Origin: Lachnospiraceae bacterium
GTDB taxonomy: Bacteria > Bacillota_A > Clostridia > Lachnospirales > Lachnospiraceae
DNA length: 5,139 nucleotides
Reading direction: 5' to 3'
Assembly: GCA_017416055.1 (NCBI GenBank)
Contig: JAFQDI010000092.1
Coordinates: 1-5,139 of the forward strand
The number at the start of each line of letters is the position of its first letter. Position 1 is the first letter of the stretch. Positions 1,917 through 5,139 of this stretch are shown here, one piece after another. Under the pieces are notes generated by a model. That model was not told where the DNA came from and made no database searches. It saw only the letters and a program-made list of their open reading frames with translations. The position numbers were made by a program, and so were the translations under genes.

Positions 1917-2468
1917 TTACATTTTATGCAAATAACACTCCTCATCGTGTGAATTGATCACTCCGATTGCCTGCAAATAAGAATAGATGATCACAGACCC
2001 GACAAACTTCATCCCTCTCTTCTGTAAGTCTCCGGAAATCGCGTCCGACAGATCGTTTGTGGTTTTATCGGTTTCATAAATAATCTCACCGCTGATAAAC
2101 TGTTTCAGATAGTGATAAAACGAACCGTATTCGTTGGAGATTGCCTTGAAAATCTTGCTGTTATTGATACTTGCGATGATTTTTCTCCTGTTTCGGATAA
2201 TGCCTTTGTTATTTAGCAGTTCATTTACCTTTCGATCATCATAACAAACCACTTTGTTGATGTCGAACTGATCATACGCCAGTCTGAAATTCTCCCGCTT
2301 GTTCAGCACGCATTCCCAAGATAATCCGGCCTGAAACGACTCCAGGATCAACATTTCGTACAGATATCCCTCGGTGAAATTCGGTTTGCACCATTCATGA
2401 TCGTGGTATTCGATATATAAGGGGTTATTTAAGTTACACCATTTGCATCTCTTTTTTCCGTCACTCAT
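1917..2468 (-). CDS. tag: DNA-3-methyladenine glycosylase I
   Basis: Tag removes 3-methyladenine from alkylated DNA by cutting the N-glycosidic bond, the first step of base excision repair. The protein is 183 residues against 187 in Escherichia coli and aligns over its whole length. The zinc-snap ligands of the family are all present: Cys8, His22, His174 and Cys178, with the last pair spaced by four as in E. coli (His175/Cys179). The active-site region LESFQAGLSW holds Glu43 and Trp51, matching E. coli Glu38 and Trp46, and Tyr21 matches Tyr16. KRGMKFVGSVI near the C terminus is also typical. The ATG lies inside the end of the upstream gene in an ATGAGTGA overlap of eight bases. AAGAGG seven bases upstream serves as ribosome binding site, so translational coupling is likely. 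The gene is about 40% G+C (my count over 1921-2460), clearly below its neighbours, which may mean a separate origin. No terminator follows it. Confidence 0.97.
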   Translation of the reverse strand: MSDGKKRCKWCNLNNPLYIEYHDHEWCKPNFTEGYLYEMLILESFQAGLSWECVLNKRENFRLAYDQFDINKVVCYDDRKVNELLNNKGIIRNRRKIIASINNSKIFKAISNEYGSFYHYLKQFISGEIIYETDKTTNDLSDAISGDLQKRGMKFVGSVIIYSYLQAIGVINSHDEECYLHKM

Positions 2469-5139
2469 CTGCTAACCTCTTCTTTCCCAGCCGCACATCC
2501 TCCATCACATCCCGCATCTCCTCATCGAGATGATCAAAGAGGTAATTCTTTCCGGACACAAAGCGGCCAAGAAACTCCTTTCGCATCTCCACGCACACCC
2601 GCTCGATCTCCTCCTGCAGTTCCCTGGCAGACATTCTGATCGCTCCGGCTCCCAGAATGATCACCTGCTCCATTCCATCGGACGTGGCCACTGTCACTCG
2701 GTGGTGCTTCGCAATCCGGCGGGTTGCCTTCTCAATGTACTGATCGGCGGTCTCCGCCTCACGGGTATAGACCACATGGATGTTGTGGTAATCCTGTACG
2801 GATTCTGTTCCGCCCTGTACACGATACGCATCAAACACCAAAATCAGTTCACAGCCCACGGCGCCCTGATAGTTGCAGAGGACGTCCATCAGTTTTCCTC
2901 TGGCACTGTCGATATTTTCCTTTGCGAGCGCAGAAAGTTCCTCCCACGCAAAAATAATATTGTAGCCGTCCACCAAAAGATACTCGGTCTGTGGCTCAGA
3001 CTTTTTTATCACCGTGCGTACCGGTGCAGCGTATTCCCGCACCAAAGGTCCGCTCCCCAGGCTTCTCTCCCGTTTGATCGGACCATAAGTTCTCGTGAAG
3101 ATCTCTTCCAGTTCCTCATCCAGCTTTGAGGTCCCAAAGGAAGCTCCTCGGTAGATTTGTGAGCCGCGGGGCTCATTGACCGTATCCTGTTCGCAGGATG
3201 CGATATCCATAAATTCAGCCTTGTTTTCCGCCTGCACAGAACCGGCATGGTTCACCTCAGAGGTCCATCCACTCTCAACATGCATGTAATTTCGCACTTC
3301 ATCCCAAGGCACCCAGAATCCGGCACCATGGGTGCAGAAGACAGATCCGGTGGGATTGTCAAGATCAGCCTCACTGTCATAGTCTCTGGATTCGATCACT
3401 TCCTCCGCATTATGGCAGGGCAGATATCCCTTCACTGTACAGAACAGTCTTCCTCGGCCTCCGGTATATGCCGCCACCTGCGCCTGATAATTCCGCATAC
3501 AAGCTACCGGCGCGCTCCCCGTGAGCACTGCCATCTCACCGATGGTCTCCGGTGCCGTAAATTCACCAAACATACTCTGAATGTCGGTCATCGCACGACC
3601 GACCTGGGCAAGCGGCACCTCCAATTTAAACTGATACCAAGGCTCCAAAAGAACGCTCTTCGCGCACTTTAGCCCCTGTCGCACTGCGCGGTACGTCGAT
3701 TGGCGGAAGTCGCCGCCTTCCGTATGTTTTAAATGAGCTTTTCCGGCGATCAGCGTAATCTGCATATCGGTGATCGGTGCCCCGATCAATACGCCCACAT
3801 GTTCTTTCTCTTCCAAATGGGTCAAAATCAGCCTCTGCCAATTCTTCGCCAACACTTCCTCACTGCAATCAGAGCCATACCTAAGCCCACTGCCCGGCTC
3901 ACCGGGTGTGAGGAGCAAATGCACCTCCGAATAATGGCGAAGTGGCTCGTAGTGACCCACTCCCTCCACTGGTTCTGCAATCGTTTCCTTATAAACAATA
4001 TTTCCCTCACCAAACTCCACCGAAAAGCCAAAACGGTCTGCAATCAGACTCCTTAATACCTCTGTCTGCACTTCGCCCATGAGCTGAGCATGCAGTTCAC
4101 CGAGCTGCTCGTTCCACACAATATGCAGTTCCGGCTCTTCCTCCTCCAGTTGGCGGAGTTTAGGAAGAACAGTCCGCACATCGCATCCATCGGGCAATAA
4201 AATACGATACGTCAGCACCGGTTCCAAAACCGGCAGGATCGTTCCTTCCTCTGCTCCCAGCCCCTGTCCGGGATAGGTGTACGTCAAACCGGCGACCGCA
4301 CATACACAACCTGCGCTCACCTCATTCACCGTCTCATATTTCTCGCCGGAATAAAGTCTGATCTGACTGATCTTCTCCTCCCAGCGTTCACTTTCTGCGC
4401 CACCACCGACCGATGATTCAAAAACCGATCCGCCTCTGTCCGGCCTCTCCGCCCGATCTCCGGACAAAACGGCCTTCACTTTCAGGTTTCCACCGGTCAG
4501 TTTCAAATGGGTGAGGCGATTCCCCTGATCATCACGGGAAATCTTAAACACTCTGGCCCCAAAACGCTCACCATAATTTAGCTCGTTCGTATAAGCAGAA
4601 ATTCCGGCAAGCAATTCCTCCACTCCATCCAGTTTGAGCGCCGAGCCAAAATAGCACGGAAATACCGTTCGTTCTGTGACCGCCTCCGCAATTGATACGG
4701 TACTGATCGAACCGTTTTCCATATATTCCTCCAGCAGAGCCTCACTGCACATCGCAAGACTCTCCTGAAACGCTTCCCCATTTCCGGAAGAAAATTCCAC
4801 ACAGCTATCGCTAAGCTGCTCCTTCAGTTCACTCATCAGCGCTGCCGGATCCGTCCCTTCCTGATCCATCTTGTTGATAAACAAAAACGTGGGGATCCCG
4901 TAACGTGCAAGGAGGTTCCACAGGGTGTGCGTATGCCCCTGCACACCGTCAGCACCGCTGATCACCAGTATCGCCACATCCAGCACCTGAAGCGTCCGCT
5001 CCATCTCCGCCGAAAAATCCACATGACCCGGTGTATCCAGCAGTGTGATTTCCATCTCTCCCTGTACAAACCGTGCCTGCTTGGAAAAAATCGTGATTCC
5101 TCTCGTCCGTTCCTGCGAGAATGTATCCAAAAAAGTATC
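2461..5139 (-). CDS. TetM/EF-G-like translational GTPase fused to C-terminal Rae1/YacP-like NYN nuclease domain, 5' end cut by window
   Basis: 892 residues are visible. The frame is open to the edge, and by comparison with the family roughly 45 N-terminal residues, including the P-loop, lie outside. Numbering from the first visible residue, the GTPase domain shows switch I RGITI (13-17), G3 DTPGHVDF (35-42, His39 the presumed catalytic histidine), G4 NKMD (89-92) and G5 GSALK (165-169). Domain II begins near 194 and holds a glycine-rich insertion at about 227-252. EF-G/TetM-like domains III to V follow to about 623. A linker of about 95 residues carries DEELEEIFTRTYGPIKR. From about 719 a NYN domain aligns with Bacillus subtilis Rae1 (YacP): LLVDGYNII with Asp724, VFDAY with Asp770, ETAD with Asp799, TSD with Asp821, and SARELQEEIE. 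TetM-type proteins enter the A site and Rae1 cuts mRNA there, so I infer a cytoplasmic ribosome-bound mRNA-cleaving or rescue factor. Automatic pipelines probably call it tetracycline resistance, but the domain IV loop differs from TetM. It overlaps tag by eight bases. Confidence 0.93.
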   Translation of the reverse strand, partial: DTFLDTFSQERTRGITIFSKQARFVQGEMEITLLDTPGHVDFSAEMERTLQVLDVAILVISGADGVQGHTHTLWNLLARYGIPTFLFINKMDQEGTDPAALMSELKEQLSDSCVEFSSGNGEAFQESLAMCSEALLEEYMENGSISTVSIAEAVTERTVFPCYFGSALKLDGVEELLAGISAYTNELNYGERFGARVFKISRDDQGNRLTHLKLTGGNLKVKAVLSGDRAERPDRGGSVFESSVGGGAESERWEEKISQIRLYSGEKYETVNEVSAGCVCAVAGLTYTYPGQGLGAEEGTILPVLEPVLTYRILLPDGCDVRTVLPKLRQLEEEEPELHIVWNEQLGELHAQLMGEVQTEVLRSLIADRFGFSVEFGEGNIVYKETIAEPVEGVGHYEPLRHYSEVHLLLTPGEPGSGLRYGSDCSEEVLAKNWQRLILTHLEEKEHVGVLIGAPITDMQITLIAGKAHLKHTEGGDFRQSTYRAVRQGLKCAKSVLLEPWYQFKLEVPLAQVGRAMTDIQSMFGEFTAPETIGEMAVLTGSAPVACMRNYQAQVAAYTGGRGRLFCTVKGYLPCHNAEEVIESRDYDSEADLDNPTGSVFCTHGAGFWVPWDEVRNYMHVESGWTSEVNHAGSVQAENKAEFMDIASCEQDTVNEPRGSQIYRGASFGTSKLDEELEEIFTRTYGPIKRERSLGSGPLVREYAAPVRTVIKKSEPQTEYLLVDGYNIIFAWEELSALAKENIDSARGKLMDVLCNYQGAVGCELILVFDAYRVQGGTESVQDYHNIHVVYTREAETADQYIEKATRRIAKHHRVTVATSDGMEQVIILGAGAIRMSARELQEEIERVCVEMRKEFLGRFVSGKNYLFDHLDEEMRDVMEDVRLGKKRLADE
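2476..2481 (-). promoter_or_regulatory. Ribosome binding site of tag inside the upstream coding region
   Basis: The minus strand reads AAGAGG, then seven bases, then the tag ATG at 2468. The site lies within the last codons of the GTPase-nuclease gene. Ribosomes finishing that gene would uncover or reuse it, which supports coupled expression of the two. Confidence 0.65.

Follow-up and report, generated by a model that had tools for sequence, protein, structure and literature searches.

The window analysed here, a stretch of 5,139 nucleotides that makes up positions 1 to 5,139 of contig JAFQDI010000092.1 of a Lachnospiraceae bacterium (assembly GCA_017416055.1), carries on its minus strand a gene in which a translation-factor-like GTPase is fused to a Rae1/YacP-type NYN nuclease. 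The frame runs without interruption from its stop at 2461 to the window edge at 5139 (892 visible residues), and its 5' end is cut off by that edge. Judged by comparison with P0002, the nearest complete relative among the matches listed (951 residues, 80% identity to the window protein), about 39 N-terminal residues including the P-loop lie beyond it. An earlier note on this DNA had proposed that one frame joins TetM/EF-G-type domains to a complete Rae1/YacP-like NYN domain, and both the open reading frame and the Pfam domains bear this out: the protein consists, in order, of an EF-G/TetM-type GTPase, a hairpin tail, a linker of about 100 residues and a complete NYN_YacP (Rae1) domain, as follows.

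2461..5139, minus strand: fused GTPase-NYN gene, 5' end cut (continuous frame; Pfam domains; P0002 comparison)
4588..5139, minus strand: GTP-binding domain, visible residues 1-184 (GTP_EFTU 2-184, 1.1e-36)
4009..4224, minus strand: EF-G domain III, residues 306-377 (EFG_III 22.2 bits, under the curated cut-off of 27)
3661..4002, minus strand: EF-G domain IV, residues 380-493 (EFG_IV 5.9e-15)
3700..3738, minus strand: domain IV tip AHLKHTEGGDFRQ, residues 468-480, where TetM has its SPVS loop (alignment with TetM and EF-G sequences)
3409..3654, minus strand: EF-G domain V, residues 496-577 (EFG_C 2.2e-15)
3277..3408, minus strand: tail following domain V, residues 578-621 (SVFCTHGAGFWVPW...YMH; conserved, and shared with unfused relatives)
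2980..3276, minus strand: linker, residues 622-720, between the tail and NYN_YacP
3076..3114, minus strand: conserved linker helix ELEEIFTRTYGPI, residues 676-688 (loose motif across linkers; L007 model)
2491..2979, minus strand: NYN_YacP (Rae1-type) nuclease domain, residues 721-883 (PF05991 9.6e-51; 5mq8/5mq9)

The nuclease and GTPase modules of the fused protein

The nuclease domain scores 172.5 bits against PF05991 (cut-off 24.6) and aligns with the solved YacP chains 5mq8 (1.3e-26) and 5mq9 (6.8e-27). Asp724, 770, 799 and 821, which we take to be the acidic active-site residues and which the earlier note had numbered correctly, are all present and match D7, D53, D81 and D104 of the 5mq9 stretch. 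They are identical in 81/81 fused proteins (the window protein and 80 loci), and their conservation among orthologues, on which that note had made its reading depend, is complete in all 164 NYN rows compared (101 fused, 62 standalone and one from PDB, with dropped long-branch rows restored). Other positions are less constrained in the fusions: R835 and E840, fixed in 51/51 standalone domains, are kept in 68/101 and 45/101 fused ones, respectively, and R747 is slightly relaxed (92% of 98 fused domains); the window protein retains all three. The NYN match in many fused proteins stops at about position 133-158 of 166, so that the domain end is apparently short or missing, and 15 of the 80 named loci have fewer than 165 residues from the DGYN motif to the protein end, while the NYN domain of the window is complete. 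On the GTPase side, DTPGH and NKMD are present in the window protein, and the P-loop residues AxxDxGKTT, DTPGH and NKxD are invariant across the 66 sequences of alignment A1 (52 fused, 14 unfused). By these sequence measures the GTPase and the Rae1-type nuclease domain are both intact.

The two modules are joined by a tail and a linker. In the structure model of the Blautia hansenii protein L007 (predicted template modelling score 0.64), the tail forms two adjacent strands after domain V, two stretches of the linker fall below 50 in predicted local distance difference test (pLDDT), and a helix at 666-677 corresponds to the conserved linker helix. Linker length varies from 75 to 147 residues (96 measurable of 101 fused proteins). 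A loose version of the helix motif occurs in 97/99 linkers against 0.6 expected from shuffled ones, a figure that is only a guide since the motif was picked after the linkers were seen and the linkers are homologous; a strict version is matched in 37/96.

We considered and rejected an assembly chimera, as PF05991 is carried by all 120 relatives listed, window protein included (7973 found), and the identical join recurs in 80 loci of named genome records. Fusion genes with broken frames in five genomes (G169, G072, G204, G349 and G424) reflect assembly error or decay. The GTPase-NYN architecture itself is already known: Atkinson 2015 (PMC4342817), in the passages that concern it, describes Tet-NYN fusions of the same architecture in ten Clostridiales species and proposes RNase-based resistance. 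This was the only description of the fusion, and no test of that proposal was found, in the literature searched. The statement in the earlier note that similar fused proteins occur in Lachnospiraceae also holds, as the relatives are mostly from this family and bear names such as 'TetM/TetW/TetO/TetS family...' and 'small GTP-binding protein'.

Free and fused Rae1 in Clostridia

Across 293 Clostridia-class genomes, NYN_YacP was found above cut-off in 193, which divide by length into 89 with a standalone gene, 96 with a fusion, seven odd cases and one with both (G285). The odd cases comprise three fusions with broken frames (L157-L159), a free gene with an insert (L199 in G287) and three frames that appear to be cut by contig ends (G173, G174 and G090). 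Counting them as six fused and one free gives 103 fusion genomes and 91 that have a standalone yacP; the two sets overlap in a single genome, where 32 would be expected if the two were independent, an expectation that ignores the shared ancestry of the genomes. A search for a separate yacP gene in the same genome, which the earlier note had suggested as a check, found none in 32/32 genomes searched among those of the 80 fusion loci: NYN_YacP occurs there in the fusion alone. In Blautia's family NYN_YacP is present in 110/120 genomes, 104 of them with the fusion (complete, with a broken frame or located at a contig end) and six with a standalone gene, and the fusion is thus near-core in this family. 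A second, partial NYN lies at a contig end in G346, and second matches of about 21 bits in G141, G191 and G220 fell below cut-off and were left uncounted; with G346 set aside, a free yacP alongside the fusion was seen only in G285 among the genomes searched.

The usual locus of yacP gives a second line of evidence. Where the gene is standalone it adjoins sigH in 15/15 loci and lies directly between rlmB and sigH in 14 of them (G221 aside). B. subtilis Rae1 is likewise described, in passages of the sources cited below, as a free protein co-transcribed with yacO/rlmB, whereas here it forms the C-terminal part of a GTPase encoded at another locus; in the window, NYN_YacP is fused and next to tag rather than a free gene between rlmB and sigH. 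We covered the rlmB locus in 19 chosen fusion genomes (G285 aside), in three of which the stretch has no sigH; this reading left out G016, G023 and G028, which also had a match. No intact yacP lies between rlmB and sigH in 16/16 fusion genomes that have both close together. Taken with the genome counts, these comparisons indicate that the fusion has replaced the free rae1/yacP gene, which is no longer found at its usual locus.

Seven larger rlmB-sigH gaps (of the 16) were searched for remnants of the lost gene. A clear yacP relic lies in the gap L226 of Herbivorax (G032), where it scores 36.6 bits while the best of 100 shuffles of that gap gives 25.8, and the gap L228 (G297) has a short and weak one of 25.8 bits against 23.9 for its own best shuffle; as shuffles over all seven gaps also reach 25.8 bits, the L228 relic rests on its place and motif. 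No relic was found in the other five gaps tested. G285, which carries the fusion together with an intact rlmB-yacP-sigH locus (L153, L219), has a fusion that groups with those of G032 and G297 in both NYN trees (99/98 and 100/98), and in these three genomes the fusion may well have come by transfer, with the resident yacP decaying afterwards.

Several observations on mobile records and neighbouring genes stand beside this distribution. YacP-like matches occur on 23 plasmid records, 12 of them from C. difficile, and the eight C. difficile records listed (H3-H10, 97-118 kb) encode an NYN protein of 43.5% identity. Among hits H1, H2 and H11 are matches at 58-60% identity to records classed as Monoglobus and Agathobacter plasmids, probably fusions as features there are named GTPase or Tet proteins, together with an NYN stretch of 66% identity on a record from faeces that is classed as phage. 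In the window, tag (DNA-3-methyladenine glycosylase I; 1917-2468, minus strand) shares 8 bases with the end of the fusion gene, with proB and then proA downstream of tag on the same strand as the fusion. No conserved neighbour gene of the fusion emerged, the best cluster being present at 13 of the 94 loci with the fusion whole (of 99 given). PADLOC models of anti-phage defence systems, run on two proteins, returned only a weak ThsB match (E 0.0026) in one of them.

Origin of the fusion and character of its GTPase

In the GTPase tree the fused proteins form one clade (34/34 rows, 98/96) whose sister group is made up of 14 unfused relatives, while TetM and EF-G fall outside, and a wider quick tree (without L215, L120, ten EF-G-like rows and the broken GTPases L248 and L273) agrees on a single fused clade. 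The GTPase tree therefore indicates that the fusion arose once. Fused NYN domains group at 100/99 with seven free ones (37 fused and seven standalone domains in this clade), apart from 51 other free domains. Six of these seven nearest free domains come from genomes of Blautia's family and the seventh from G221, and five of the seven genes (L254-L258) adjoin rlmB. Moreover, five of the seven genomes (G221, G336, G355, G360 and G391) carry a sister GTPase as a gene of its own, with 43-49% identity to L007 and, in G391, a broken frame. Genomes with a free yacP and a separate sister GTPase thus appear to represent the state before the fusion; that they do so, rather than showing a secondary split, is argued by gene order beside rlmB and not by the tree.

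The unfused relatives (at least 40% identity) were sought in 61 of the 91 genomes with a standalone yacP (plus G285) and in 80 of the 100 without NYN_YacP. They occurred in 14/61 of the former versus 6/80 of the latter (p 0.014), and the partnership between GTPase and yacP is therefore a loose one. Tet-like GTPases of about 620-730 residues without a nuclease (L112-L125, L268-L272) are found in Clostridia both with and without yacP. The sister clade of unfused Clostridia GTPases (L112-L125) shares with the fusion the domain IV tip HxKHT(E/S)GGDFR and the tail SVFC..G.GF, but these proteins stop after the tail and have the strict linker-helix motif in 0/14 cases, whereas the fusion continues into linker and nuclease.

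The front part of the window protein matches both TetM and EF-G (the VIA-align match list of the fused protein was taken up by its EF-G part), and an EF-G-like fold with GTPase motifs is present, as in ribosomal protection proteins. In TetM, the SPVS loop of domain IV has a role in displacing tetracycline. The earlier note had likened the GTPase part to TetM and EF-G; at this tip the alignment shows no likeness to TetM, as HxKHTEGGDFR replaces SPVS in the fused GTPases. Against the NCBIfam model tet_protect (cut-off 775) the window protein, which is N-terminally incomplete, scores 337 bits, and three full-length fused relatives score 429, 400 and 425 bits. Because of this tip and of scores far under the resistance-family cut-off, the fused GTPase is not a TetM orthologue, and its domain IV tip, as aligned, is of a third type, neither EF-G nor TetM. 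Compared with the TetM/TetO ribosomal protection proteins, with their SPVS tip, the fusion lacks SPVS and has an extra tail, linker and nuclease. The earlier interpretation stands for its intact conserved modules, its relatives and the separate-yacP check, whereas a likeness to TetM does not extend to the domain IV tip, and the architecture on which it was built had been published in 2015.

A probable Rae1 carried on a translation-factor-like GTPase

Passages of three papers (PMC6613710, PMC12320835, PMC10100781) describe Rae1 of B. subtilis as an A-site endonuclease that cuts mRNA during translation, and in two of these (PMC10100781, PMC6613710) how it gains access to the A site on the correct ribosomes is put forward only as a proposal. 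Candidate targets of Rae1, named in a passage of PMC10632193, are S1025, yrzI, bmrC and bmrD. Like B. subtilis Rae1/YacP, the fusion has an NYN_YacP domain, and its four Asp agree with those of the solved YacP chains. With Rae1 replaced by a protein with an EF-G-like front, the fusion would most simply do Rae1's work, with the front serving as its ribosome address. We favour, at a probability of about 0.6, the reading that the fusion is these bacteria's Rae1, carried on a translation-factor-like GTPase and dependent on its cycle, and that it is a housekeeping factor of mRNA decay or ribosome rescue and not mainly one of tetracycline resistance. Ribosome binding, mRNA cleavage and coupling to GTP are what we infer from sequence for such a protein. 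The EF-G-like module would bind ribosomes with a free A site, as after a pause, and domain IV would probe that site; on GTP hydrolysis the GTPase part would leave, and the tethered nuclease would take its place or already be held near. On its long linker with one conserved helix, the nuclease would then cut A-site mRNA as Rae1 is thought to. As domain IV in the A site excludes the nuclease from it, delivery would have to be sequential or made from a neighbouring position, and with Rae1 carried on such a module its action would depend on the GTPase cycle. A bolder version, which we offer only tentatively, is that of a one-protein no-go decay machine, in which a GTPase with a third-type domain IV senses or clears the paused A site and uses its GTP cycle to pass the site on to the Rae1 nuclease it carries, so that the A-site codon is cut and the mRNA committed to decay; this machine would have replaced free Rae1 across much of Clostridia.

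A number of observations weigh against the favoured reading. The scarcity of genomes with both gene forms may partly mirror common descent, which the expected overlap leaves out. NYN_YacP is absent above cut-off from 100/293 Clostridia-class genomes, and Rae1 is therefore dispensable. Elsewhere Rae1 works without a GTPase, and close unfused relatives of the GTPase occur in 6/80 genomes searched that lack yacP, so each part can do without the other. Domain IV and the nuclease would be rivals for one A site. Within the 100/99 clade the NYN tree does not separate the fused from the nearest standalone domains, and the first NYN tree, whose fused rows were 39 of the 102 loci plus the window, places the long fused row L215 (G212) with standalone domains. 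Its GTPase sits inside the fused clade, and we read the placement as a long-branch error; the long-branch rows L212, L214, L215, L195, L197, L199 and L200 were left out of the second NYN tree and of the position comparison.

The strongest competitor, which we consider improbable though well within reach, is that GTPase and nuclease keep their own jobs and that the fusion provides co-production and a ribosome address without coupling GTP hydrolysis to cleavage. The long and variable linker with parts below pLDDT 50, the unfused GTPase relatives in genomes with as well as without a standalone yacP, and the commonness of standalone yacP would all fit such a passenger nuclease. A nuclease that is merely carried accords less well with the near-absence of free yacP beside the fusion and with a linker helix kept in nearly all linkers, and the relaxation of R835 and E840 in fused domains would fit an altered docking surface, even if the window protein keeps both residues.

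Resistance to tetracycline or to another ribosome-directed drug via RNase activity, as suggested by Atkinson 2015, seems to us quite unlikely. The overall fold, the best NCBIfam match and the database names of the relatives all point to ribosomal protection proteins, but the three full-length fused proteins reach just 400-429 bits of the 775 demanded, the TetM tip loop is replaced, and 7/52 fusion genomes also have a TetM/W-type gene above its own cut-off. The near-core presence of the gene in one family, and the lack of a neighbour gene shared by more than 13 of 94 loci, also speak against it. Least probable of all is that the nuclease acts on tRNA or rRNA, in maturation or in the decay of stalled ribosomes, instead of on A-site mRNA: the first proposal for NYN domains was a part in the maturation of rRNA and tRNA (Anantharaman and Aravind 2006, cited in a passage of PMC4342817), but this domain is Rae1-like in sequence, in active-site residues and in the gene it has displaced, and Rae1 of B. 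subtilis is described as cutting mRNA during translation.

The passages of Atkinson 2015 that concern the fusion report no loss of free yacP, relics, single origin, tip or linker features, all of which were found here. As far as our literature search reaches, what is new is that free rae1 has been displaced and left relics, that the fusion has a single origin with an apparent pre-fusion state, and that its domain IV tip is of a third type, although parts of this may already stand in Condon 2018, by its title a survey of Rae1 distribution. For the Lachnospiraceae, the finding means that a near-core gene is labelled as tetracycline resistance in databases, probably wrongly, a label that could inflate resistance counts in metagenomes. 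For the many Clostridia whose one Rae1 is attached to the end of a GTPase, it suggests that a translation-factor-like carrier brings the cutter to the ribosome, and the existence of Rae1 solely in this EF-G-like context hints that its entry to the A site can be handled by a translation factor.

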